From assembly GCF_023277115.1 (NCBI RefSeq), contig NZ_JALQCS010000001.1:62001-126000 (forward strand): a stretch of DNA of 64,000 nt, read 5' to 3'. This document shows positions 5,476 to 18,344 of this stretch, one piece after another. The position numbers and the translations under genes were made by a program. How positions within the stretch are numbered: the first letter of the stretch is position 1; every line of letters starts with the position of its first letter. The notes beneath the pieces were generated by a model. That model had not been told where the DNA came from. It did not search any database and worked only from the letters and a program-made list of their open reading frames with translations. Origin of the DNA: Acidithiobacillus acidisediminis. GTDB taxonomy: Bacteria; Pseudomonadota; Gammaproteobacteria; Acidithiobacillales; Acidithiobacillaceae.

Positions 5476-6833
5476 GCCGCGAGCGCAGTCTGTATGTCTG
5501 CCAAGCCTGTGGCGCGGCGAGCCCCAAATGGATGGGGCGCTGCGCTGAATGTGGAGCGTGGAACAGCTTGGTGGAGGAGCGTGTAGCGGCGCCAACCCCG
5601 GGCAAAGGCGCACGGGGCAGCAGCGCCTACGCCGTCGCGAGTCCACCGCAGCGATTGGCCGCCGTGCCTATTGCCGAGATTCGTCGACAGAGTAGTGGCC
5701 TGCAGGAACTCGATCGGGTGCTCGGGGGGGGCGTGGTGCCCGGCGCTGCTATTCTCCTTGGTGGTGAACCCGGCATTGGCAAGTCCACCCTGCTCCTGCA
5801 AGCCGCCGCCGGGATGGCGGCCAACGATCCTGTTCTCTACGTAACCGGCGAGGAGTCTGCCGCGCAATTGGCCCTACGCGCCCAGCGTCTGAAGATTGGC
5901 GATCCCGCCATCGAGGTGCTGGCGGAGAATCATCTGGAGAGCATCGAGGCACAGGTGGCCAAACAAACCCCTCGGGTATTACTCATCGATTCCATCCAGA
6001 CCCTGTTCACGGAAAACCTGCAATCGGCGCCGGGCTCCGTCGCTCAAGTACGGGAGTGTGCGGCACGTCTGGTGCGGCTGGCCAAGGCGCAGGCGATCAG
6101 TTTGTGGATGGTGGGCCATGTCACTAAGGAGGGCGCCATCGCCGGCCCGCGGGTCCTGGAACATATGGTCGATACGGTGCTCTATTTTGAGGGTGAGGCC
6201 GGCAGCCCCTATCGCATCGTGCGCGCCATCAAAAATCGCTTTGGCGCAGCCAACGAGCTGGGCGTTTTCGAGATGCAGGAAAAAGGTCTGGAGGAAATCC
6301 GCAATCCCTCCCGCCTCTTCCTCAGTCAGCATCAAAAACCGGTCGCGGGCAGCGTCGTCTTACCCACCCAGGAGGGCAGTCGCAGCCTGCTCGTCGAAGT
6401 CCAAGCACTGGTAACGCCCAGTCCCTTGGCCAACCCGCGGCGCGTCGCCCTGGGTCTCGATCCCAATCGTCTCTCCCTGCTCCTCGCGATCCTGCACCGT
6501 CACGGCGGCAGCTTCCTCTTTGATCAGGATGTCTTCGTAAATATTGCCGGTGGCGTCCGGGTGTTGGAGCCCGCCGCGGACCTAGCCGTCGCCTTGGCGG
6601 TGCTCAGTGCCTTTCGCAACGAGCCGGTGGAAGAGGGACTGGTGGCCTTCGGCGAGTTGGGACTCGCAGGAGAATTGCGCCCTGTAGCCCATGCCGAAAG
6701 CCGCCTGCGGGAGAGTGAAAAACTGGGTTTTCGCAGCGCCATCCTACCCGCCGGCAAGGATTTAACCGGCAGAATCCACCTGCGCCCAGCGCATTCCTTG
6801 GCCGAGGCGCTGCAATCCGCATTCGGCCATTAG
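5472..6833 (+). CDS. radA: DNA repair protein RadA (Sms)
   Basis: RadA is a RecA-like ATPase that drives branch migration of recombination intermediates. The 453 residues show, in order, an N-terminal zinc finger (CQACG...CAECG, residues 10-27), a Walker A motif GEPGIGKST near residue 98, the RadA-specific KNRFG motif near 254, and a C-terminal Lon-protease-like domain without an obvious catalytic Ser. Length and order match E. coli RadA (460). The ATGA overlap with alr suggests translational coupling. Its TAG overlaps the stop of the convergent c-di-GMP gene in a shared TTAG, leaving no room for a terminator between the two. Confidence 0.97.
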   Translation: MSRERSLYVCQACGAASPKWMGRCAECGAWNSLVEERVAAPTPGKGARGSSAYAVASPPQRLAAVPIAEIRRQSSGLQELDRVLGGGVVPGAAILLGGEPGIGKSTLLLQAAAGMAANDPVLYVTGEESAAQLALRAQRLKIGDPAIEVLAENHLESIEAQVAKQTPRVLLIDSIQTLFTENLQSAPGSVAQVRECAARLVRLAKAQAISLWMVGHVTKEGAIAGPRVLEHMVDTVLYFEGEAGSPYRIVRAIKNRFGAANELGVFEMQEKGLEEIRNPSRLFLSQHQKPVAGSVVLPTQEGSRSLLVEVQALVTPSPLANPRRVALGLDPNRLSLLLAILHRHGGSFLFDQDVFVNIAGGVRVLEPAADLAVALAVLSAFRNEPVEEGLVAFGELGLAGELRPVAHAESRLRESEKLGFRSAILPAGKDLTGRIHLRPAHSLAEALQSAFGH

Positions 6834-9697
6834 GCCGGCACCATCTGCACGCTACGCCCCGCATCGCGATGAAAGGCATCGAGCAGTGCCACCGAAAAAC
6901 GTCGATGGCAATCCTCCAGGGCAGCCCAATCGGAACTGTGGATCTTTTCATTTTCCCTGCCGAGGGCGGCAATCAGGGTATGATATTCCCGGTGCAGCAG
7001 CATCAAAATATCATCGTGCTGCACGCCCAACTGTTTCAGACGATGATGCTCTGGGCACTTATGCGCTTCCGCCATGCCGGAAAAATTGATGATTTCCGGG
7101 TTTTGCGTGAATGCCTTTTCCAGGATCTCGAAATGCGTAATGTGTTGTGCGAAACAACCCAGATAACTCCCTGGAGTATTTTCTTCTCCCTGTAAACATT
7201 GGCCAAGAAAATCGTATAAACTTTCGACTGGCATGGGACGAGCAATTGCATAGCCCTGGAAATAACGTACCCCCATAACCGTGAGGGCATCACGAATAGC
7301 CGGACTTTCCACGCCCTCGGCTACCAATTCCACATTCAGGCCGCGGGTGAGATCCAGGATCGACTGTACAAAACGCAGATCCTGCGGGCGCTCCTCCAGA
7401 CAACGCACAAAGCCTTGATCCAGCTTCGCTTTGTCCACCGGAAACTCCTTCAGACGGAGGAGCGAGGAATAGCCACTGCCGATATCATCGAGGGCAATAC
7501 GTAGCCCCGTTGCCTTCAGATCCAGCAGATGATCCATAGCGATCTGATGATCGACAAAGTCGTGACTTTCGAGTATTTCGAGGGTAATACGTGCTGGATC
7601 GACACACGATTCCGCAACAACTCGCTGTATGCCGCGCACGCAAGAGGTTCCCAGGATCTGCGGATCGATGTTGATGGATATCCAATATTGTTGGCCCATA
7701 CGATCGAAAGCCTGCAGATCGGCAATGCCACGTTGCAACATTCGCTCGGTCAATTGAAACAGATCCCGGTCCGTCAATTGCGGCAAAAACTCAGCCGGGC
7801 CCCACACCTTGCCTGCATCATCCACCAAACGCGCCAGGGCCTCCAGACCGACGATGCGTTGCTGCCTTTGATCCCAGATTGGCTGATACCAGCTCTGCAG
7901 CGCGCCGCTACGAAAAAGTTGGCGCAAGGGATACGGGGCCTGAGCGCTGTCTTCCCCATTGCAAAAGGCCCAAGGGTGATTGCGGCTATCCTTTCGGCGC
8001 TTCGCTTCAAACATCGCCTGATCCGCCTCGCGCAACAACAAATCCAGATTGCTGTTGACAGAAAGAGGATAAATACTCACCCCCATACTCACCTGCAGCG
8101 CAATCTGCTCCCCCGACTCCAAAAGCAGTGGCTTTTCGATAGCTAGGTTGATTTTGTGCAGTACGCTCTCTAGCTGAATAACATCGCGCAGCCCTTCCAG
8201 CAACAAGATGAATTCATCACCGCCAATACGCGCAATGCTATCGGTATGCCGTAGGGAGTCCTGCAGACGTTGGGCAACCCGTTGCAATATCGCGTCGCCA
8301 AGATCATGGCCGACACGATCATTGATGCATTTGAAATCATCCAGATCCAGAACAACTACAGCGAGAAGACGCTCATTCCGGTCCGCCCGCGCCCGCGCCC
8401 GGGGGAGTTCTTCTTCCAAGGCCCGCCGGTTCAGCAGATCTGTCAGCGGGTCATGCAGGGCCAGCCTCTCCAGACGCGCCTCGCGCGCTTTCTGATGCGT
8501 CAAATCATGGAAATACCCAATATAATTCGTTACCTTGCCCAAGTTGTCGCGCACCGCACGAATATGCAGAAACTCTGGGAACAATTCTCCATCTTTGCGG
8601 CGATTCCAGATTTCACCCTGCCACTCGCCATCGCGGCGAAGTTTTTCCCACATCACATCGTAAAAACCCGCATCCTGGATTCCCGAGTGCAGGATTTGCG
8701 GGGTCAGTCCCACTATTTCGTTTTCCTCATAGCCCGTCAGCCGGGTGAAGGCACGATTGACACGCACGATGCGCTGTTCTGCATCGGTGATCATGATGCC
8801 CTCCTGCGCCTCGAAGACCTGGGCAGACAGGCGCAACATTTCCCGATATGCATGGGCCTCGCTCACATCGCGCTGCACACTGACAAACTGGCTGATACGG
8901 CCTTGATGATCGCGCACGGGACTGATGGACAAATGATTCCAGAACGGCGTCCCGTCTTTGCGGTAATTCAGCACTTCGCCGTCAAAGGTCTCGCCGGCCT
9001 CCAGATGACGCCGTATACTGGCGATCACCCCCGCCGAGCTCTGCGGCCCCTGCAAGATGCGACAATTCTCCCCAATCAGCTCAGCAAGGCTGTAACCCGT
9101 CATCTCTGCAAAGGCGTTATTGAAAAAGAGGATTTTCTGCGCAGCGTCCGTCAGTAGCACCCCCTCATTGATGGAGCGCAGGGCGGCAGCAAAACTACGG
9201 TCGCGGCCCTCTACCTGGCTCTGAAAGAGAAACTGCGGGAGCGCAGCCGCAATCCCTTCGAGAAGGGCGACTTGCTCTTCCGTCGGCGCCGCGTCCCGAA
9301 AGCTGGTCAGGGCGAAACTCCCCACCACTTGGCCCAAAGGATCGCGAATCGGTGCCGACCAACAGGAGCGAATCTGCAAGGTCTTTGCGAGCTCTCGCAG
9401 GTGCCGCCAGCGCTCGTCATCGCTCGCGTTGCACACCAAGATGGTCTGCCCCGTCAGCACGACGCTGGCGCAAGAACCATTGCCCTCGGCTACGGGCAGC
9501 CCGTCAAACTGCTCGCGAATCTCAGCCGGGAAGCTGGGGGCGGCATAGAGACGCAATGTCTTTTCCGGGCCAAGGAGCATGACAGAAGCTAGGGCGCCTG
9601 GCACCACACGCTCGGCGATCCGGCACAATGATTCTACCAGAGCGCGCGCGGATTCCTCCGCCTCCGGAACTGTAACAGTACACGTGATACCGTGCAT
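6830..9697 (-). CDS. GAF-LOV-PAS-GGDEF-EAL protein: putative blue-light-responsive c-di-GMP synthase/phosphodiesterase
   Basis: This 955-residue cytosolic signalling protein has no transmembrane segment. GAF: about 15-160. First PAS: about 170-285, with the LOV signature GENCRILQGP (Cys212 as photoactive Cys), NYRKDGTPFWN (Asn244 and Asn254) and Gln275 in SVQRDV, the usual FMN contacts. Second PAS: 292-405, no such Cys. GGDEF: 415-580, intact GGDEF at 492-496 and an RHTD inhibitory site just upstream. EAL: 600-835, with E619-A-L, LEILES, DDIGSGYSS, Lys757 and AEGVES all kept. Tail 850-955 is rich in His and Cys (HKCPEHH) and may resemble a zinc-binding CZB domain. Light sensing is inferred from the motif; the balance of synthesis and breakdown cannot be read from sequence. 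Confidence 0.93.
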   Translation of the reverse strand: MHGITCTVTVPEAEESARALVESLCRIAERVVPGALASVMLLGPEKTLRLYAAPSFPAEIREQFDGLPVAEGNGSCASVVLTGQTILVCNASDDERWRHLRELAKTLQIRSCWSAPIRDPLGQVVGSFALTSFRDAAPTEEQVALLEGIAAALPQFLFQSQVEGRDRSFAAALRSINEGVLLTDAAQKILFFNNAFAEMTGYSLAELIGENCRILQGPQSSAGVIASIRRHLEAGETFDGEVLNYRKDGTPFWNHLSISPVRDHQGRISQFVSVQRDVSEAHAYREMLRLSAQVFEAQEGIMITDAEQRIVRVNRAFTRLTGYEENEIVGLTPQILHSGIQDAGFYDVMWEKLRRDGEWQGEIWNRRKDGELFPEFLHIRAVRDNLGKVTNYIGYFHDLTHQKAREARLERLALHDPLTDLLNRRALEEELPRARARADRNERLLAVVVLDLDDFKCINDRVGHDLGDAILQRVAQRLQDSLRHTDSIARIGGDEFILLLEGLRDVIQLESVLHKINLAIEKPLLLESGEQIALQVSMGVSIYPLSVNSNLDLLLREADQAMFEAKRRKDSRNHPWAFCNGEDSAQAPYPLRQLFRSGALQSWYQPIWDQRQQRIVGLEALARLVDDAGKVWGPAEFLPQLTDRDLFQLTERMLQRGIADLQAFDRMGQQYWISINIDPQILGTSCVRGIQRVVAESCVDPARITLEILESHDFVDHQIAMDHLLDLKATGLRIALDDIGSGYSSLLRLKEFPVDKAKLDQGFVRCLEERPQDLRFVQSILDLTRGLNVELVAEGVESPAIRDALTVMGVRYFQGYAIARPMPVESLYDFLGQCLQGEENTPGSYLGCFAQHITHFEILEKAFTQNPEIINFSGMAEAHKCPEHHRLKQLGVQHDDILMLLHREYHTLIAALGRENEKIHSSDWAALEDCHRRFSVALLDAFHRDAGRSVQMVPA

Positions 9698-9997
9698 TTA
9701 GCTTGACCCCACTCCCCGCCACCCGTCCTATTTGCAAGGACTTGCATCATCTTCCAGCATTCTGCCAAGAGTCCCTCTCCACTTCCCTAAGTAGGAAAGC
9801 GGACAAGACTGCCTAGGATGCGGAGACTACCTCTAAATTTTTCTCATCGCAAGCTTACAAGATACTTTGCTATTAGCAGCGCTGCCGAATGGATGGCGCG
9901 CCCTCTCCTAAAAGAAGGTCAGACCCTCACTCGATCTCAATATTTTATTAGGTTAATATTCCCCCCTAACATTACCCCCTATCCTAGGGTGACTTGC
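9698..9997. promoter_or_regulatory. Divergent intergenic region between the LOV c-di-GMP gene and the exporter operon
   Basis: This 300-base gap has no convincing gene. It must hold promoters for both flanking genes. On the plus side an AT-rich block at about 9939-9960 holds two copies of the self-complementary AATATT separated by 10 bases, about 40 bases before the exporter start; it could be a -10 region or an operator. A 10-base palindrome GCAGCGCTGC lies at 9876-9885. An open frame from 9818 continues into the exporter gene but has no protein-like character. The exporter has AGGGTGA at 9985-9991 as a ribosome binding site. Confidence 0.4.
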
Positions 9998-11026
9998 ATG
10001 CGCAGCAAGAAAAAACTCGCCGTCATTATTCTTATCCTGCTGTTGGCAGGCGCAGTGGCCGCTTGGTTTTTTCTGCGCAGCAAGCCCGCGACGAACACCC
10101 TGACGCTCTATGGCAACATCGACATCCGGCAGGTGCAATTGGCCTTCCATGATGCCGGCCGCATCCAGACCTTACTGGTGCAGGAAGGCGACGCGGTACA
10201 CCCGGGCCAGTTGCTCGCCATCCTCGACCCGGCTCGTTTTCAGGATGCCCTGCTCCGCGCCCAGGCGACCCGGGCGGCCCAGCAAGAGACCCTGAACAAA
10301 CTGCTGGCCGGTACTCGTCCGGAGGAAATCGCCCAGGCCCGTGCCCGACTCCAGGCAGCCCAAGCCGTAGTTGCCAATGCTCGTATCACCGCCCAACGCC
10401 AGACGGCCCTCGCCGCCCAGCGCTATGTTTCCCAGCAGAGCGCCGACAACGCCAGTCGGGCCTTGAAGAGTGCACTAGCGGAACTCCAGGTTGCCCAGGA
10501 GGGCTTGGCCCTAGCCCTGCGCGGGCCGCGACAGGAGGACATTGCCGCGGCCCGGCAAAAGCTGCGTGCGGATGGCGCTGCTCTGGCCCTGGCCCAACGC
10601 GAACTGGACGACACCAAGCTCTACGCCCCTGCCAGCGGCGTCATTCAGGACCGCATCCTGGAGCCCGGCGACATGACCAGTGCGGCCACGCCCGCCTTTT
10701 CCCTGGCCCTGGACAATCCCGTCTGGGTGCGGGCCTACCTTCCCGAACCGGAGCTGGGCAAGGTCCGCTTGGGGATGAGTGCCCGGATTTACAACGATTC
10801 CTTTCCGCACCAGAGCTTCGCCGGTTGGGTCGGATTCATTTCGCCCACCGCCGAATTCACCCCCAAGGCAGTGGAAACCACCGAGCTGCGCACCCAACTG
10901 GTCTATCGCGTGCGGATCTATGCCTGCAATCCACAGCATCAACTGCGCCTGGGCATGCCCGTGACCGTCCAGATTCCCCTCCAGGACAATGCGCCCAAGG
11001 AACGCGGCGCAGCTGTCTGCCAGTAG
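9998..11026 (+). CDS. HlyD-family membrane fusion protein of an ABC exporter (YbhG-like)
   Basis: The 342 residues begin with a basic N-terminus and one membrane helix (about 7-26). Then follow the first half of a biotinyl-lipoyl domain (DAGRIQTLLVQEGDAVHPGQLLAILD), an Ala/Gln/Arg-rich coiled-coil hairpin (about 80-200), the second lipoyl half (LYAPASGVIQDRILEPGDM) and a beta-barrel. It should bridge inner membrane and outer channel. ATG 9998 follows AGGGTGA and gives the membrane helix a normal position. It lies 6 bases before the ATPase gene, so the four genes to 14980 form one unit. The exported substrate is not readable from sequence. Confidence 0.92.
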   Translation: MRSKKKLAVIILILLLAGAVAAWFFLRSKPATNTLTLYGNIDIRQVQLAFHDAGRIQTLLVQEGDAVHPGQLLAILDPARFQDALLRAQATRAAQQETLNKLLAGTRPEEIAQARARLQAAQAVVANARITAQRQTALAAQRYVSQQSADNASRALKSALAELQVAQEGLALALRGPRQEDIAAARQKLRADGAALALAQRELDDTKLYAPASGVIQDRILEPGDMTSAATPAFSLALDNPVWVRAYLPEPELGKVRLGMSARIYNDSFPHQSFAGWVGFISPTAEFTPKAVETTELRTQLVYRVRIYACNPQHQLRLGMPVTVQIPLQDNAPKERGAAVCQ

Positions 11027-11032
11027 TCCGAG

Positions 11033-12757
11033 ATGAACACCCCGGCCTTGGCCTTTCGGGAAGTACGCAAGGGCTTCCGCCGCGGCAAGGCGACGGTCTG
11101 GGCCTTGGATGGGGTCAGCCTGGAGATTCCTGCCGGCAGCATTATCGCCCTCCTCGGCCCCGATGGCGCCGGCAAGAGCACTCTGATGCGCCTGGCGGCG
11201 GGCCTGCTGCTGCCGGACCGCGGGGACATCCAGTTCCCCCAGGCAGCAGCAACCGGTGGGGAGGCGGGGACGGGCGTCAGCTATATGCCCCAGCGCTTTG
11301 GTCTCTATGAAGAACTGACGGTACAGGAAAACTTGGATCTCTATGCGGATCTGCAAGGACTGCCCAAGGCCCAACAGGGGCCGCGTCAGGAAGACCTGCT
11401 GCGCTTGGCGGCCCTGGGACCCTTTCGTCAACGCCGGGCGGGTGATCTCTCGGGAGGGATGAAACAGAAACTGGGGGTAATCTGCGCGCTCTTGCGCGTC
11501 CCCCGCCTGATGTTACTCGATGAGCCGACGGTGGGTGTCGATCCCATTGCCCGCCGGGAACTCTGGGAGATCATCAGCGGCCTGCGTGTCCAAGGCATGA
11601 CGGTACTCCTCAGCACGGCCTATTTCGCAGAGGCCGAACAGTGTGACGAGATCATTATCCTGGATCGCGGCAAATTGCTGGTGCAGTGCCCTCCCTCGGC
11701 CCTGCGCCAGCGGGCCGAGGGGCGCTATTTTTTGGTACGGGAGGAAGGTACCCCGCGGCGTTCCTTGCATGAACGCCTGCAGCAGCGCACTGGCGTCCTG
11801 GACGCACGGGTCATCGCCGAGGGCATCCGCGTCCTCTGTGCAAAGCCTGTTCCTCTTCCCGCGGGGCAAGAGCAGTGGCAAGCCGTGCCAGCGCAGGTGG
11901 AAGATGCCTTTGTCGAGCTCCTTGGCCAGGAGGATCCGACCCTGATTGCCAAGGTTTCCTCCACCAAGCCCGTTTCCCCGGCATCAACCGACAAAGAGGT
12001 GATGGTAGAAGCGCAGGACCTGCATAAATTCTACGGTCACTTCGAGGCGGTGAAAGGGAGTACCTTTTCCGTCCAGCGCGGCGAGATCTTTGGCCTGCTG
12101 GGGGCCAATGGCGCTGGCAAGACCACCACTTTTCGCATGCTCTGCGGTCTGTTGCCAGCATCCTCCGGCAGTCTGCGCATTGCCGGCGTCGACATGCGCC
12201 GAGCAACGGCGGCGGCGCGCGCCCGAATCGGCTACGTAGCACAGAAATTCGCCTTGTATGATGATCTGAGCACCCTGCAGAACCTGCAGTTTTTTGCCAG
12301 CGCCTATGGTCTGCGCGGTGCCCGCCGGCGTACCCGTCTGGACTGGGCCCTGCAGACCTTCGCACTGCACGACTATACCGGCGACAATGTCAGTGCCCTG
12401 CCCCTGGGGATCAAGCAGCGCCTGGCCTTGTCCTGCGCCCTGCTGCACGAACCGGCAATACTTTTTCTGGACGAGCCGACCTCGGGGGTCGACCCCCTGA
12501 CGCGCCGTGCCTTCTGGCAGCAGATCCATCAATTCGCCGAGTCCGGCGTCACCATTCTCATCACCACCCATTTCATGGACGAGGCCGAATACTGCGATCG
12601 TCTGGTCCTCATGTCCCAGGGCGAGGTGCTGGCCCAAGGCAGTCCGGCGGAGATCCGCCAACGCTGCATCAGCGCCACGCAGCCCGAGCCGAGTATGGAA
12701 GACGCTTTTATCCAGCTGATCGAAGAGCATGAACAGGCCCTGCGGAGGTCCGCATGA
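11033..12757 (+). CDS. ABC exporter ATPase with two tandem nucleotide-binding domains (YbhF-like)
   Basis: This 574-residue protein holds two ATPase domains in one chain. Domain 1 (about 1-230): Walker A GPDGAGKST, signature LSGGMKQK, Walker B LMLLDEPT. Domain 2 (about 320-560): Walker A GANGAGKTT, Walker B ILFLDEPT. Its signature reads LPLGIKQR instead of LSGGxxQR, so the two ATP sites are probably unequal; this form occurs in the YbhF-type second half. It would power the two ABC-2 permeases that follow (4-base overlap, ATGA). E. coli YbhFSR is tied to drug and cation export; this is only a guide to function here. Confidence 0.93.
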   Translation: MNTPALAFREVRKGFRRGKATVWALDGVSLEIPAGSIIALLGPDGAGKSTLMRLAAGLLLPDRGDIQFPQAAATGGEAGTGVSYMPQRFGLYEELTVQENLDLYADLQGLPKAQQGPRQEDLLRLAALGPFRQRRAGDLSGGMKQKLGVICALLRVPRLMLLDEPTVGVDPIARRELWEIISGLRVQGMTVLLSTAYFAEAEQCDEIIILDRGKLLVQCPPSALRQRAEGRYFLVREEGTPRRSLHERLQQRTGVLDARVIAEGIRVLCAKPVPLPAGQEQWQAVPAQVEDAFVELLGQEDPTLIAKVSSTKPVSPASTDKEVMVEAQDLHKFYGHFEAVKGSTFSVQRGEIFGLLGANGAGKTTTFRMLCGLLPASSGSLRIAGVDMRRATAAARARIGYVAQKFALYDDLSTLQNLQFFASAYGLRGARRRTRLDWALQTFALHDYTGDNVSALPLGIKQRLALSCALLHEPAILFLDEPTSGVDPLTRRAFWQQIHQFAESGVTILITTHFMDEAEYCDRLVLMSQGEVLAQGSPAEIRQRCISATQPEPSMEDAFIQLIEEHEQALRRSA

Positions 12758-13869
12758 ATCGGCAGCGTCTTTTTGCTCTGGTGCGCAAGGAATTTCTGCA
12801 GATCCTGCGTGATCCTTCGGCCATCGCCATCGCCTTCGTCCTGCCGGTGTTCTTGCTCTTCCTGTTTGGCTATGGCGTGTCGTTGAACGCAAAACACGTA
12901 CCCATCGCGGTCCTGGTCGGCCAGACTGACCCCCAGACGAGTGCCTTTGTTGCGGGCCTGCAGGAATCCCCTTATTTCGCTCCCATCCCCCTGCCCGATA
13001 TGCACCTTGCCGTTCAGGCAATGATGCAGCGGCGCGTCGATGGCATCGTCTGGTCACGGGGAGATTTCGGCCGGATGCTGGCGCAGGGGCAGTCGGCGCC
13101 CATTGGCGTCTATGTCAATGGCGAGGATGCCAACAACGCTCGGATCCTCGAGGGCTACCTACAAGGCGTCTGGCAGACCTGGTTGCAGCAGCAGGCCATC
13201 AGCCAAGGCCATCCACTGCTGATTCCGGTGCTGGCCCAGACCCGCATCTGGTTCAATCCCGCCGCCCGGAGCCGCGATTATCTGGTGCCAGGTCTGATTG
13301 CCGTCATCATGACCCTGATTGGTGCCCTACTCACGGCCCTGGTAGTGGCGCGGGAATGGGAACGGGGCACCATGGAGGCGCTGATGGCCAGCCCCGTGCG
13401 CATGGGGGAGGTCCTGTTGGGCAAGCTCATCCCCTATTTCGTCCTCGGCATGGGAGGCATGCTGCTCTCCGTTGCCCTGGCGGTCTGGCTCTTTGCGGTG
13501 CCCCTGCGTGGCAGTTTCTGGCTCCTGCTGGGCTGCTCCAGCCTCTTTCTTCTCGCGTCCCTGGGGATGGGCCTGCTGATTTCCAGCGCTGCCCGCAATC
13601 AATTTGTCGCCGGGCAGATCGCCATTATCGTCACCTTCCTACCGGCGTTCATTCTCTCGGGCTTCATCTTCGATATCGACTCCATGCCCACGCCCATCCA
13701 AGTCATTACCCACCTGGTGGCGGCCCGCTACTTTGTCAGTATCCTGCAAACCCTCTTTCTGGCGGGCAACATCTGGCCGGTTATCCTCTGGAACAGTCTC
13801 GCCTTGCTGCTCATGGCGCTGGCCTTCCTGGGCCTGACCCTGCGTCGCTCCCACAAGAGGCTCGACTAG
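12754..13869 (+). CDS. ABC-2 type permease, first subunit (YbhS-like)
   Basis: The 371 residues match the ABC-2 permease layout: a short cytoplasmic N-terminus reading RKEFLQILRDPSAIAIAF, one membrane helix, a large periplasmic domain (about residues 45-170), then five or so helices. The conserved VAREWERGTMEALMASP segment before the second helix is the coupling region typical of YbhS/YbhR proteins. The start overlaps the ATPase stop (ATGA). A related but distinct second permease follows after one base, so the transporter is likely a heterodimer. Confidence 0.92.
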   Translation: MNRQRLFALVRKEFLQILRDPSAIAIAFVLPVFLLFLFGYGVSLNAKHVPIAVLVGQTDPQTSAFVAGLQESPYFAPIPLPDMHLAVQAMMQRRVDGIVWSRGDFGRMLAQGQSAPIGVYVNGEDANNARILEGYLQGVWQTWLQQQAISQGHPLLIPVLAQTRIWFNPAARSRDYLVPGLIAVIMTLIGALLTALVVAREWERGTMEALMASPVRMGEVLLGKLIPYFVLGMGGMLLSVALAVWLFAVPLRGSFWLLLGCSSLFLLASLGMGLLISSAARNQFVAGQIAIIVTFLPAFILSGFIFDIDSMPTPIQVITHLVAARYFVSILQTLFLAGNIWPVILWNSLALLLMALAFLGLTLRRSHKRLD

Positions 13870-13870
13870 A

Positions 13871-14980
13871 GTGTGGGTGCGTATCTGGGGGCTGATCATC
13901 AAGGAGCTGCTGGTCTTGCTGCGGGACAAGCGCAGTCGCTTCGTCCTCATCGTGCCCCCCGTGGCGCAGCTGCTGATCTTTGGCTATGCCGCCAGCTTCG
14001 ATCTCAATCACATCCCCTATGCGGTCTACAATCAGGATACGGGCATTGCGTCCCGCGAATTGCTGGCGCGCTTTGCCGGCGCTCCCGCCTTCTCCCTGGT
14101 GACACAGGTCCAACGTGAGGCACAGATTGCGCCGCTCCTCAACAGCAAGCAGGCCCTCCTGGTCTTGCGGATAGGCCCCAACTTCACGGCCGACCTTCTT
14201 TCCCGGCGACCAGCGTCTGTCCAGGTCCTGGTCGATGGTCGCAATTCCAATACCGCCGCCCTTGCCCTCACCGACGCCAACAGCATCCTCCTGGCCTTCA
14301 ATGAACACTGGGCCAAGGCCCATGGCTGGGGCCAGCCTCCCGCCCATCTGGTATTTCGCGCCTGGTTCAATCCCAACTTGCTGTCGCGTTGGTTCATCGT
14401 GCCCGGCATCGTCGCCTTGCTCACCCTGGTCGTCACCCTCCTGGTCACCGGTCTTTCCGTGGCCCGCGAGCGAGAGCAAGGCACTTTTGATCAGCTACTG
14501 GTGACCCCGCTCACACCCCTGGAAATCCTACTCGGCAAGTCCTTGCCTGGACTGTTCATCGGCTTCCTCGAAGGGCTGTTCATCGTCTTCGTCGCAGTCT
14601 TCTGGTTTCATATCCCCCTGCGCGGCGAGCTCCCCGCCCTGGCCCTGGGGCTGCTGCTCTTTTTGTTGGCGGCCATCGGCATCGGCCTGACCATCTCGTC
14701 TCTGGCCAGCACCCAACAGCAGGGCTTGCTCGGCGTATTCCTCTTTCTCGTGCCCGCGGTAATTCTTTCGGGCTTTGCCACCCCCATCGCCAATATGCCA
14801 CCCCTGATCCAGGACCTGACCCTGCTCAACCCCATGCGCTATTTTCTCGTGATCGTGCGCGGCGTCTTTCTAGAGGGCGATGGTTTCTCCACTCTCTATT
14901 CCCAATACTGGCCCCTCGCCCTCATTGCCATCCTCTCTTTGGGCTTGGCCAGCTGGCTGTTTCGGCATCGCCTCGGCTGA
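13871..14980 (+). CDS. ABC-2 type permease, second subunit (YbhR-like)
   Basis: The 369-residue permease has the same plan as its neighbour: N-terminal IIKELLVLLRDKRSR, first helix, periplasmic domain, then a helix bundle entered by VAREREQGTFDQLLVTP. It starts with GTG one base after the preceding TAG; no nearer ATG gives a full N-terminus. It is the last gene of the exporter operon. The next gene downstream is convergent, and the 90 bases between them hold no clear hairpin plus T-run. Confidence 0.92.
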   Translation: MWVRIWGLIIKELLVLLRDKRSRFVLIVPPVAQLLIFGYAASFDLNHIPYAVYNQDTGIASRELLARFAGAPAFSLVTQVQREAQIAPLLNSKQALLVLRIGPNFTADLLSRRPASVQVLVDGRNSNTAALALTDANSILLAFNEHWAKAHGWGQPPAHLVFRAWFNPNLLSRWFIVPGIVALLTLVVTLLVTGLSVAREREQGTFDQLLVTPLTPLEILLGKSLPGLFIGFLEGLFIVFVAVFWFHIPLRGELPALALGLLLFLLAAIGIGLTISSLASTQQQGLLGVFLFLVPAVILSGFATPIANMPPLIQDLTLLNPMRYFLVIVRGVFLEGDGFSTLYSQYWPLALIAILSLGLASWLFRHRLG

Positions 14981-15070
14981 GCTGCCACTTTATGGAGTGA
15001 AACTGCCCCATTCGCGCGCCTGATCTGCTCTCCACCGGCGCTGCTGATCGTTCAGCCGCTGCGCTAATTT

Positions 15071-17314
15071 CTAACGAATGGGAACCAGAATGCGCGCAAA
15101 TTCTTCTGCCGGAATCGGCCGGGAGTACAGGTAGCCCTGCTGCCGGTCGATGCCGATGGACGCCAAGGCCTCTGCCGTTTCCTGTGTCTCCACCCCTTCC
15201 GCGACGAGATGCACGCCCAGACCCCGCGCAAGAGACGCCATTCCTTGCACCAGTTTCAGATTCTTCTCTTCTTGCAGAAGTGGCTGAATCAGGGATTTAT
15301 CTAACTTGATTCCCTCACAACCCAACTCATTCAGATTCTGCAGTGCCGCATAGCCGCTACCGAAGTCATCAAAAGCAAACTGTACCCCGGTCTTGCGGCA
15401 CGCCTGCAATAACTGGGCTACGCGGGGGAGTTGAACAAAATCTACCCGTTCCACAATCTCCAGTTGGAGATGTTGAGGCATCACTGCGGAATAGCGCGCA
15501 AGGAGCGAACGCAGTAGGTGCAAGAGCTCTTCCCCCTCTAATTGCACTGCCGCTAGATTGATATGGACATCAATCTGGAGACCGCGGGCGTGCCAATCCG
15601 CAGCCTGGGCAATGGCGGTCTCCAGAATCCAAGCACCCACCTGCCGCATGATCGGCAGACTCTCCAGCAATTCCAGAAACTCCCCCGGGGCGACAATCCC
15701 TTTGCAGGGTGCCAACCCTTTCTCGGGATCCTGCCAGCGAAGCAGGGCCTCCGCCCCGATGATGCGATTCTGCGCGAAGGAGACAATCGGTTGCCAGTAG
15801 AGAACAAACTCCCGTCGTTGCCAGGCCAGGAAGAGGCGGTCGCGCAAAGAGTCTACTATGGCCGGATTGTTCGTATCGGCTGCCACCAGCGAAAAGCGAT
15901 CTCCACCTGCCTGTTTGGCCTGATACATGGCCTTGTCAGCCTGGTGCAAGAGTTCCTCCGGCCCTTCCGACAGAAAGGGATAGAGAACGATCCCCGCGCT
16001 TGCCGAGAGGGATAATCCCCGGCCCTGTGGGGTGGAAAAGCTCCGCCGCGCCGCATCAAGGAGCCGCTGTGCGACACGGTAGGCTTCGCTGACATGAGCA
16101 AGATCCTCGGCAAGCACCACAAACTCATCACCGGCGTAGCGGATCAAGCAGTCCTCCATCCGTAGTGCGGCACGCAGATCTTGTGCGACCGCTTGCAATA
16201 CCTGATCTCCTGTCGCGTGTCCCAATTGATCATTGACCGGTTTGAATCCATCCAAATCCAGAAAGATCAGGGCAAACAGGTGTTGATATCGCATGGCTCG
16301 AGCCATGGCATGGTGAATCCGTTCGATGACTACGCGTCGATTCGGGAGTCCCGTGAGCGAGTCTCGCGTTGCATGCTCTGTCATCTCGGCCTCGAGTTGT
16401 TCTCGATAGAGGTTGGCCGCCAAGAGATCGGCGAGCAAACGCAGATGCTCCCAGTCCCACTGGGGGATCCGTTCCGGAGGCTTGGTCTGGAACCAGGACA
16501 GGACCAAGACACCGCGTACGTTCTCTGATCCGACGCGCAAGGGCAGCGCAAGACTGGCGCGCAGCCCCGCTTCTACGAATGCGGGCAGGGCCTGTGTACT
16601 GGCGGCATAGTCGGACAGATAGACCGGTGCACCCGACTGCAGCGCCGCCCCAGCGCTTCCCTGATCATCCGGAAAGTCTTCCGCAAGCAAGGACTGATAG
16701 CGCGACGAAAGTCCGTGAAAGAACCGGTAGCGTAGCCGATCTGATCCAGACGGCACGATCAATCCGGCACCATCCGCTCCGGCAATTTGGCAAGCCAGAT
16801 CGGCGGCGCGCCGGAAGAAGATTTCCAGATCCGTCTGCTGCAGAAGATCACGCATCGATAATATGGAGGCATGTAACCGTTCTTCTGCAAGGGTCTGGGC
16901 AATCACAAAGTGGCAGGCCTCCAGGAGATCCCAAAAGGGTGCTGGTGGCAGAGAGGATGCGTCCGCGAGATCCCAAAAGACCCGGCGCAAGCTCGTGAAC
17001 AGCCGTAAGAGATCACGATCTGGGAGCAACTGCGCCGATTGCTGCGCGAGCCTTTGTGCTATTGACCGTTGCTGTTGCCAAAAGGCTTCGTCATAGGGGC
17101 CACTGAGTAGGGCATGTAACCAGTCTGATGTGAGCTCTTTGCCGATCAGATCGCAGAGGAAGGAGAGACGGGACGTACATTGCGTTTTCCAGCACTGCAA
17201 GAGTTCCGGTATTCGCGGGATCCAGTGGATGCTCCAGGAGGCAAGGGCAGCTTCCTCTTCGGCCTCCGGGAGGAAAATCCCTCGCTCAGATAAAGCCCCC
17301 ACCGCCGCATTCAT
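15071..17314 (-). CDS. GGDEF-EAL protein with N-terminal globin-sensor-like region and GAF domain
   Basis: The protein has 747 residues and no membrane segment. Residues about 20-135 are helical; the stretch SDWLHALLSGPYDEAFW (63-79) resembles the F-G region of globin-coupled sensors, but the position where the proximal heme His would be expected is not His, so heme binding is doubtful. GAF: about 155-300. GGDEF: about 310-470, motif AGDEF (394-398, Ala for the first Gly) with an RMED inhibitory site. EAL: about 490-740, with E522-A-L, EIVE, DDFGSGYAAL, Lys670 and AEGVET, so phosphodiesterase activity is plausible. The ATG overlaps the stop of the 80-residue gene upstream (TAATG). Confidence 0.92.
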   Translation of the reverse strand: MNAAVGALSERGIFLPEAEEEAALASWSIHWIPRIPELLQCWKTQCTSRLSFLCDLIGKELTSDWLHALLSGPYDEAFWQQQRSIAQRLAQQSAQLLPDRDLLRLFTSLRRVFWDLADASSLPPAPFWDLLEACHFVIAQTLAEERLHASILSMRDLLQQTDLEIFFRRAADLACQIAGADGAGLIVPSGSDRLRYRFFHGLSSRYQSLLAEDFPDDQGSAGAALQSGAPVYLSDYAASTQALPAFVEAGLRASLALPLRVGSENVRGVLVLSWFQTKPPERIPQWDWEHLRLLADLLAANLYREQLEAEMTEHATRDSLTGLPNRRVVIERIHHAMARAMRYQHLFALIFLDLDGFKPVNDQLGHATGDQVLQAVAQDLRAALRMEDCLIRYAGDEFVVLAEDLAHVSEAYRVAQRLLDAARRSFSTPQGRGLSLSASAGIVLYPFLSEGPEELLHQADKAMYQAKQAGGDRFSLVAADTNNPAIVDSLRDRLFLAWQRREFVLYWQPIVSFAQNRIIGAEALLRWQDPEKGLAPCKGIVAPGEFLELLESLPIMRQVGAWILETAIAQAADWHARGLQIDVHINLAAVQLEGEELLHLLRSLLARYSAVMPQHLQLEIVERVDFVQLPRVAQLLQACRKTGVQFAFDDFGSGYAALQNLNELGCEGIKLDKSLIQPLLQEEKNLKLVQGMASLARGLGVHLVAEGVETQETAEALASIGIDRQQGYLYSRPIPAEEFARILVPIR

Positions 17315-17556
17315 TACATTTCCCGCGGCGGAATATCTACAACCCCGGTCTTGGTAGTCCTGGAAGGATCTGCTTCTGTCGAGCGACTATCGGGCTGTGC
17401 ATTTTCCGCAATCATCTGGAGATAGGCCTCCAGCAGCAGGGTATCCAGAATCTGTTCCGGCGGTATTCGCCAACGCTTCGACAGCTCAGCCAGACAATGC
17501 TGACGCCAACGCCGATCCCTTGCTTCGTCGAGGGGAAAGATCCTGCGCCGGGTCAT
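17314..17556 (-). CDS. Small protein of unknown function between PilZ and GGDEF-EAL genes
   Basis: The 80-residue product is not a family I recognise. Residues 1-55 are charged and probably helical (Arg-rich start, then an amphipathic LDTLLLEAYLQMIAE helix); the tail is rich in Ser, Thr, Asp and Pro and probably disordered. There is no signal peptide or membrane helix. It is sandwiched by overlaps: its ATG overlaps the PilZ gene stop by 4 bases, and its stop shares one base with the next ATG. That makes co-translation with two c-di-GMP proteins likely, so an adaptor role is a reasonable guess but no more. Confidence 0.75.
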   Translation of the reverse strand: MTRRRIFPLDEARDRRWRQHCLAELSKRWRIPPEQILDTLLLEAYLQMIAENAQPDSRSTEADPSRTTKTGVVDIPPREM

Positions 17557-18344
17557 AGCACCTGCCCAGAAAAACGATCTCGGGCAGAGTTAACTACCGA
17601 CCGGATCTGCTCGCCCTTCTTACACAAATACAGATGCTCGGCCTTGCGCTTCTGACTCCCCGTGAGCTCGAAATGAATCCCATAGAGGTAGGGATAGAGC
17701 GGGTGCGTGATTCGCTCCTGTCGGGCAATGGTTGCTATGGTTTCACAGGTGCCGCACTCCGGGATCTCGAACTCCACGAGGACCATTTCCCCCGACGCCA
17801 AAATATCCTTGCCCAGCAACAGAGAGGCGCCCCCAGGACTGAAGTCATGGAGCTTTCCATGAATCGTCCGACCATCCTTCTTGCGCATCAGGATATTGCC
17901 TTCGATCTGCACGCGCCGTTGTTGGCGTGCCTGTCGTGCCAGGACTCGCGTCGGGATCTCAAAATACTCTAAGCCTTGAGCGCTATGCTTCCAGTCGGCA
18001 AAGAAGCCGAGAATCTGGGGTCGTGCCAAGCAAAAGAACAAGGGCTTGCGCAATGGAGGCGCCTCTCCCAGCATAGGATTTATCGGCTCCAGGAGGAATT
18101 CGTGCCCCTCCCAACCGCGGAAGTGACAGAGCGTGCCGCTATCGCCAGACTCCGGAGTATAGAAAATCGCACTTTGCCCTTCGGCCAGTCCCAGGTCTTC
18201 CGGACTCGGACGCAGTAGCTCCTCATATCCTGACAAGAAAACCAGGGGCAGGAAGTCGACCAGCGCCAAGCCTCCCCGCTGCGGGAGCAGCAAGGCCAAT
18301 TCAGTATCGTCTTCACTCAGCGACATCACTTTTTCCGGGCTCAT
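17553..18344 (-). CDS. PilZ-domain c-di-GMP receptor with YcgR-like N-terminal domain
   Basis: The product has 263 residues. The C-terminal half is a PilZ domain with both c-di-GMP-binding motifs: RQQRR (Arg140-x3-Arg144) and DFSPGG (Asp167, Ser169, Gly172). The N-terminal 130 residues have the beta-rich look of the YcgR N-terminal domain, but this is a weaker call. In YcgR proteins, ligand binding changes contacts with a motor or secretion machine; no flagellar gene is in this window, so the target is unknown. It is the first gene of a three-gene unit and overlaps the next by ATGA. It starts with ATG 18344; GGAAGGGATG lies just upstream. Confidence 0.85.
   Translation of the reverse strand: MSPEKVMSLSEDDTELALLLPQRGGLALVDFLPLVFLSGYEELLRPSPEDLGLAEGQSAIFYTPESGDSGTLCHFRGWEGHEFLLEPINPMLGEAPPLRKPLFFCLARPQILGFFADWKHSAQGLEYFEIPTRVLARQARQQRRVQIEGNILMRKKDGRTIHGKLHDFSPGGASLLLGKDILASGEMVLVEFEIPECGTCETIATIARQERITHPLYPYLYGIHFELTGSQKRKAEHLYLCKKGEQIRSVVNSARDRFSGQVL

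Follow-up and report, generated by a model that had tools for sequence, protein, structure and literature searches.

The window analyzed here is a 64,000-nucleotide stretch of the Acidithiobacillus acidisediminis genome (RefSeq assembly GCF_023277115.1, contig NZ_JALQCS010000001.1, positions 62,001–126,000), and our subject is a gene on its reverse strand (6830..9697, (–), by open reading frame call) that encodes a 955-residue protein. From its N- to its C-terminus, the protein is composed of a GAF domain, a LOV domain, a second PAS domain, a GGDEF domain, an EAL domain and a C-terminal domain. As judged by its residues, the first PAS domain (residues 165–290; 8828..9205, (–)) is a real LOV domain with intact adduct residues, fused to GGDEF and EAL domains that are likewise intact. 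By its domain content the protein is of a known kind, a LOV-coupled enzyme of cyclic dimeric guanosine monophosphate (c-di-GMP) turnover, and is a variant of that kind in having a short A–B loop and a PAS partner of the flavin adenine dinucleotide (FAD) type; its host is unexpected.

A sequence-only reading of this DNA, made earlier from the letters alone, had held that the first PAS domain is not a generic one. Pfam places two PAS stretches on the 955-residue protein, the best at residues 178–280 and the second from ~298. A profile comparison of residues 165–290 alone, which that reading had proposed as a refuting test, put the LOV hidden Markov models (HMMs) ahead of the non-LOV PAS models by ~36–50 bits. 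The blue-light kinase and YtvA models scored 116 and 113 bits, and the general PAS model TIGR00229, NifL and DosP scored 77, 66 and 49 bits, respectively. The best Protein Data Bank (PDB) sequence match is a Cys-bearing LOV domain from Chloroflexus aggregans (6rhg; phmmer E-value 1e-31). Because of this match to a solved LOV domain and the LOV HMM E-values of ~1e-32 to 1e-33, a chance match is excluded.

The residues agree with the profiles. The motifs GENCRILQGP, LNYRKDGTPFWN and SVQRDV, which the sequence-only reading had picked out, are present together with Asn244, Asn254 and Gln275, and the TGT codon of Cys212, the predicted adduct-forming residue, lies at the position given for it (9062..9064, (–), read from 9064 to 9062). 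GENCRILQ corresponds to the GXNCRFLQ-type adduct motif with one change, Phe to Ile. Arg213 and Arg229 are also present, and we take these to be the two putative arginines that would contact the phosphate of flavin mononucleotide (FMN). Such a role for two arginines has been stated for SL2 from Synechococcus elongatus (PMC8846402). The domain carries eight of the nine conserved residues of which a published rule asks at least eight (Dietler 2022; PMC9098866), the missing one being the Phe that is Ile, and has in addition the strand-I Gln275. It also fits a published search pattern with the Cys as its last position, [NS]-x2-[FPGHSA]-x4-[GEQR]-x(9,11)-C (PMC4844311). None of the 22 rows that we grouped as other PAS, a group that includes three rows which the tree places with the LOV-type domains and which lack the Trp described next (L076, L103 and L142), has eight of the nine residues or fits the pattern. 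The F-alpha Trp of FAD-type PAS domains is found in 19 of these 22 rows and is absent from residues 165–290, where Arg229 occupies its site. The earlier statement that all standard FMN contacts are kept is mostly borne out; it fails for the core-motif Phe, which is Ile, for the usual Gly, which is Ser, and for the A–B loop, which is three residues short.

The tree places the domain among LOV domains, and its predicted fold is nearest to LOV structures. Relatives were collected with residues 1–290 as the query (the best 80 of at least 538). In building the tree, we passed over ten duplicate loci and dropped matches of fewer than 86 query residues, taking 164 hits to 160 rows; two window rows were added, and rows below 38 bits were then dropped (162 to 134). 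Among the resulting 134 domains, 115 LOV-type rows, including the window, are split from 19 others with a Shimodaira–Hasegawa-like approximate likelihood ratio test (SH-aLRT) support of 99. An AlphaFold2 model of the LOV domain, built with an alignment of 68 sequences (the window and 67 of 81 references, 14 near-duplicate, Cys-less or poorly aligned ones having been left out by hand and rows holding X earlier), has a predicted local distance difference test (pLDDT) score of 95.0. Foldseek gave 643 matches to this model at E ≤ 0.001; the 50 listed are LOV structures, the best being 9vf7 with a template modeling (TM) score of 0.96. VIA-align gave a Z-score of 21.9 for the best LOV structure and of 20.6 for 8c05.

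The second PAS domain (residues ~298–402; 8492..8806, (–)) lacks a Cys at the LOV site, as the sequence-only reading had said, and reads GLTPQILHSG there. Directly upstream of the GGDEF–EAL unit it carries Trp350 (8648..8650, (–)), which aligns with the F-alpha Trp of FAD-binding PAS domains, and Asn365 (8603..8605, (–)), which aligns with their flavin-binding Asn. Both residues are conserved in each of the seven sequences in which this domain is present, and this Trp and Asn have been described as the signature of FAD-PAS domains (PMC10468136). The order of HMM scores is reversed relative to the first PAS domain, with 140 bits for DibA, 70 for NifL and 52 and 54 for the two LOV models. The second PAS domain looks like an FAD redox sensor of the NifL/MmoS/Aer type, and in both AxDGC2 and RmcA an FAD-PAS domain upstream of GGDEF–EAL exerts control (PMC12540587).

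The output motifs had been read as intact, and we found the same. The GGDEF domain (residues 413–570; 7988..8461, (–)) contains GGDEF at 8210–8224 and the RxxD inhibitory site, RHTD, at 8240–8251. In the EAL domain (residues 591–821; 7235..7927, (–)), the catalytic motifs, which we take to be the E of EAL, N, E, DD, K, E and Q, are all present. The best whole-protein HMM is that of the phosphodiesterase DibA, with 508 bits, below its cut-off of 980. In RmcA, the EAL domain becomes active when guanosine triphosphate occupies the GGDEF domain (PMC12540587). Because the EAL motifs are intact, DibA is the best HMM and RmcA provides a precedent, phosphodiesterase activity is expected to dominate, and the protein is most likely a c-di-GMP phosphodiesterase in the main.

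Full or partial copies of the protein are present in four genomes of the same genus (G007, G003, G002 and G001) and two of another genus of the family (G013 and G010), and a variant copy in G025 lacks the EAL domain and has RYCTILQ as its core. Identity of the relatives to the window over the LOV domain runs from 74% down to 53%. Across the window and six relatives, with the variant-core row L012 left out, 47 of the 126 LOV columns are invariant. Eight residues assumed to be key ones had been named, with an assumed AsLOV2 numbering. Seven of them (Asn211, Cys212, Arg213, Gln216, Asn244, Asn254 and Gln275) are invariant (hypergeometric p = 0.004, for a list that omits the Gly that is Ser in the window), and the exception, Arg229, is His in G013. 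Cys212 is kept in all seven relatives, its codon being TGT in the window and TGC in each of the seven. The gene adjoins radA in the window, G007, G003, G002, G013 and G010, and its other flank in G007 and G003 holds ssb and uvrA. This conservation among relatives and the radA neighborhood point to a gene inherited within the family rather than recently acquired. In a plasmid search with the whole protein, which returned at least 5000 records, all matches listed fall below 60% identity.

The host genome (2.81 Mb in four contigs) contains a RuBisCO large-subunit match of 456 bits and nine PilZ matches, and the host is probably a mineral-oxidizing chemolithotroph. The earlier remark that no other light gene is visible holds within the window for LOV, BLUF, PHY and photolyase; elsewhere the genome has two photolyase-family matches, and such matches occur in all eight genomes of the genus. 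BLUF and PHY were searched for in the host genome and neither was found, rhodopsins not having been searched for. Among 31 genomes of the order, 20 have a LOV-like match (1e-16). Reading of the loci stored from that search revealed Cys-bearing forms in at least 11 genomes: the window's protein group in G000 (the host), G001, G002, G003, G007, G010 and G013, with the variant in G025, and other Cys-bearing proteins in G004, G019 and G022. At least 15 genomes have a Cys-less LOV-like paralogue in which Leu, or Met in two rows, replaces the Cys and Asp replaces the second Arg; its 18 rows form one group (support 99), and all of them have a GGDEF domain and none an EAL domain downstream. The host's two Cys-less paralogues, L002 and L003, are adjacent GGDEF proteins (G000:C1, ~1507000–1510000) with the core GLKILQGP and both Asn residues kept. 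A separate Cys-less line (support 99) is formed by L069 and L096 from Methylohalobius and Methylothermaceae, which are LOV-like domains with an ordinary loop and Pro for the Cys (NPRLLQGP and SPGILQGP).

The protein has two further domains. In the N-terminal GAF domain (residues 15–152; 9242..9655, (–)), Cys76 within GSC (9470–9472, (–)) and Cys112 within CWS (9362–9364, (–)) are kept in all eight compared sequences. The C-terminal domain (residues 832–955; 6833..7204, (–)) is 124 residues long, contains His and Cys residues and lacks a Pfam match. It is common to other GGDEF–EAL proteins of the family, and in an alignment of 18 sequences one His is invariant, one Cys is found in at least 90% and the other His residues are less conserved. 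The order of these residues recalls the CZB zinc domain, in which three His and one Cys serve zinc, and the host's many GGDEF–EAL proteins with this C-terminal domain recall the GGDEF–EAL–CZB set of PMC6416229, as would suit a member of the Acidithiobacillus family. An assignment as CZB (PF13682) is unsupported by Pfam, which gave no match within residues 832–955 and none among the families of the 18 members; four CZB matches lie elsewhere in the genome. A single-sequence model of the domain has a pLDDT of 46. Between the LOV gene and ssb/uvrA, the window holds a block (9818–18344) that is absent from this position in G007 and G003. Its contents are HlyD and ABC proteins (an exporter), a GAF–GGDEF–EAL gene (15071–17314) and a PilZ protein (17553–18344), so further c-di-GMP genes are located next door.

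The reading we favor, and hold to be probable though well short of certain, is that the protein is a multi-input c-di-GMP enzyme, mainly a phosphodiesterase, in which a light input through an FMN-LOV domain and a redox input through an FAD-PAS domain are combined before the output. In this mechanism, the LOV domain would bind FMN and enter a photocycle in which blue light produces a flavin–Cys212 adduct. Gln275 would relay the change to the β-sheet, from which the following helix would carry the signal to the second PAS domain. The latter would bind FAD as a redox sensor of the AxDGC2/RmcA type and, being seated on the GGDEF–EAL unit, would merge light and the redox state of the cell upstream of the output. 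What the analysis shows is the order of the domains, their residues and how these are conserved, the predicted LOV fold and the place in the tree; binding of FMN and FAD, the photocycle, the sign of the response and the dominance of phosphodiesterase activity are inferred. Light control of c-di-GMP turnover by the protein is likely, and redox may act via the second PAS domain rather than via the LOV domain.

Several observations weigh against this reading. The A–B loop of the window has five residues between its Thr and Ile landmarks compared to eight in ordinary LOV rows (in this count L041 and L093 are cut at the loop by the alignment), and, in the last strand, the usual Gly two residues before Gln275 is replaced by Ser in the window's group and by Ala in G001. 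The Cys-bearing rows of the tree comprise 26 short-loop domains, including the window, and 59 long-loop domains. In the 26, the residue after the Cys is Arg in 12 (the window among them), Lys in three and another residue in 11; at least eight of the nine LOV residues are found in 12 of the 26, again including the window, compared to 53 of the 59 ordinary LOV domains. The same count of residues, taken alone, is also found in three of nine Cys-less LOV-like rows. A solved short-loop LOV structure was not seen among the best 60 of 170 PDB matches, where 16 ranges start after the loop and are uninformative there and the LOV ranges that start before it are 1–4 residues longer than that of the query. 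In the relative L010 (G013), the second phosphate Arg is replaced by His and GGDEF reads VGDEF, so that its cyclase may be weakened, and the G002 copy (L148, ~10030–12351) is interrupted within its EAL part by ~2.3 kb of inserted DNA. A degenerate LOV domain, in which the short loop and the change of Gly to Ser leave flavin binding weak or absent and the domain acts as a dimerization PAS, would suit the loop, the Ser, the low share of short-loop domains with eight LOV residues and the loss of single phosphate-binding residues in relatives and other short-loop domains. We consider it distinctly unlikely, as the pocket residues are fixed in the window's group while most of the domain varies, Ser or Ala at the Gly site occurs also in the ordinary-loop rows L095, L102 and L104, and the LOV fold is predicted with confidence.

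A different account grants the LOV domain its flavin and lets it work in the dark as a sensor of redox or oxygen, with light being incidental. The RuBisCO-bearing, probably mineral-oxidizing host fits this account, as does the commonness of Cys-less LOV-like paralogues in the family, and most PAS domains of acidithiobacillus c-di-GMP enzymes have been ascribed to oxygen and redox (PMC6416229). RprR, a protein with LOV, GGDEF and EAL domains, has light-independent roles, and the blue-light effects reported in vitro were minor and mostly rprR-independent (PMC12802281). However, a redox-only flavin site needs no Cys, yet the Cys is kept in all eight members of the group, and the photolyase-family matches throughout the genus suggest exposure to light; a dark sensor is credible but unlikely. 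Which role falls to which PAS domain is itself uncertain, because PASd of RmcA, a flavin PAS without the LOV Cys, has been linked to both light and redox (PMC8846402). It could also be that the first PAS domain belongs to the FAD-binding redox sensors typified by NifL and MmoS and has its Cys by coincidence. The FAD-type MmoS PAS (3ewk) is the next kind of PDB match after LOV (2.8e-29) and, among the best 60 of 170, the only one aligned without a length difference at the loop, so the sequence search by itself is not one-sided, and NifL fits the predicted structure with a Z-score of 18.8, near the 21.9 of the best LOV structure. With NifL nearly as close, the fold cannot decide between the two families and its comparison was rejected as a discriminator; the residues do decide. 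The Trp site is occupied by Arg229, eight of the nine LOV residues are in place, the LOV models stand ~50 bits above NifL and the tree separates the LOV-type rows with a support of 99. On residues, HMM scores and tree, a convergent Cys in an FAD-type PAS was rejected, and we regard this alternative as highly improbable.

Returning to a phosphodiesterase that combines light and redox inputs, its pairing of a short-loop LOV domain with an FAD-type PAS domain recurs. Domains with the short loop are spread over the window's family and Betaproteobacteria, Nitrospirota, Leptospiraceae and Planctomycetaceae. By an alignment-based count, a short-loop LOV domain is followed by a Trp-bearing PAS domain in 11 of 25 cases (the window excluded), compared to 0 of 59 ordinary LOV domains (Fisher p = 2.4e-7, for rows that are not independent). 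Of these 11, six are members of the group that contains the window protein, and the other five are L044, L046, L048, L049 and L050, of which three come from Rubrivivax. The query for relatives ended at residue 290, and therefore the second PAS domain did not steer this choice. In a bolder version, which we offer as a possible but doubtful extension, the protein would be a two-flavin gate in which a short-loop FMN-LOV and a tandem FAD redox PAS jointly set c-di-GMP in a CO2-fixing mineral oxidizer, and the short-loop LOV group, a distinct lineage with the loop length of FAD-PAS domains and the Cys of LOV, would be an early branch linking both flavin PAS families. The tree does not show the short-loop LOV domains as one clade (five changes), yet a single clade is not rejected by the approximately unbiased (AU) test (p = 0.252). 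SH-aLRT values are 82–85 at the forks that set the order of the short-loop groups, in a tree built quickly from 134 rows and 140 columns without bootstrap. From the tree and the AU test we claim the loop as neither old nor derived. Other large GGDEF proteins of the family also contain LOV-like domains with a short loop and the Cys (L128, L130, L022 and L123), the core being GRDCKFLQAP or GRNCRLLQGP.

Several known systems are close to this arrangement. GGDEF, alone or with EAL, is present in about 18% of bacterial LOV proteins (PMC4844311), and since LOV–GGDEF–EAL proteins are common, the fusion itself is not new. SL2 likewise has its LOV domain upstream of GGDEF–EAL and hydrolyzes c-di-GMP in its light-activated state (PMC8846402); however, its host is a phototroph and its LOV domain is called canonical, whereas the window protein adds a GAF domain, an FAD-type PAS and the C-terminal domain. 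RmcA from P. aeruginosa and AxDGC2 from A. xylinum share an FAD-PAS with the flavin Asn before GGDEF–EAL and control by redox (PMC12540587), but an adjacent, separate Cys-bearing LOV domain goes unmentioned for either in the excerpts of these reports. The MsLadC-type cyclases (8c05) also couple LOV to GGDEF, but they are LOV–GGDEF couples with no EAL and no second flavin PAS in the portion of the report cited (PMC12805367). RprR, from Ralstonia pseudosolanacearum, likewise unites a LOV domain (GRNCRFLH) with further PAS domains and with GGDEF and EAL, and differs in its periplasmic Cache domain as well as in its small response to blue light (PMC12802281). Among the matches listed, the Chloroflexus aggregans 6rhg is nearest in sequence and the Meiothermus ruber 9vf7 nearest in structure; both LOV domains differ in coming from histidine kinases and in having aligned ranges 2–3 residues longer than that of the window.

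We found no literature on a LOV domain or photoreceptor in Acidithiobacillus (by titles) or acidophiles, in a search that covered few subscription journals and not the Glantz 2016 LOV census, so a prior listing is possible. In the main text of the c-di-GMP survey, the word LOV occurs 0 times (PMC6416229). In Qipengyuania flava, light has been reported to act via c-di-GMP on the oxidation of thiosulfate, a sulfur substrate (PMC10267684). If the reading favored here is true, light would be an input to c-di-GMP in probable mineral-oxidizing autotrophs whose PAS domains are mostly ascribed to oxygen and redox, and the tandem of a short-loop LOV and an FAD-type PAS would provide a testable case of light and redox being sensed by two flavins within one protein.

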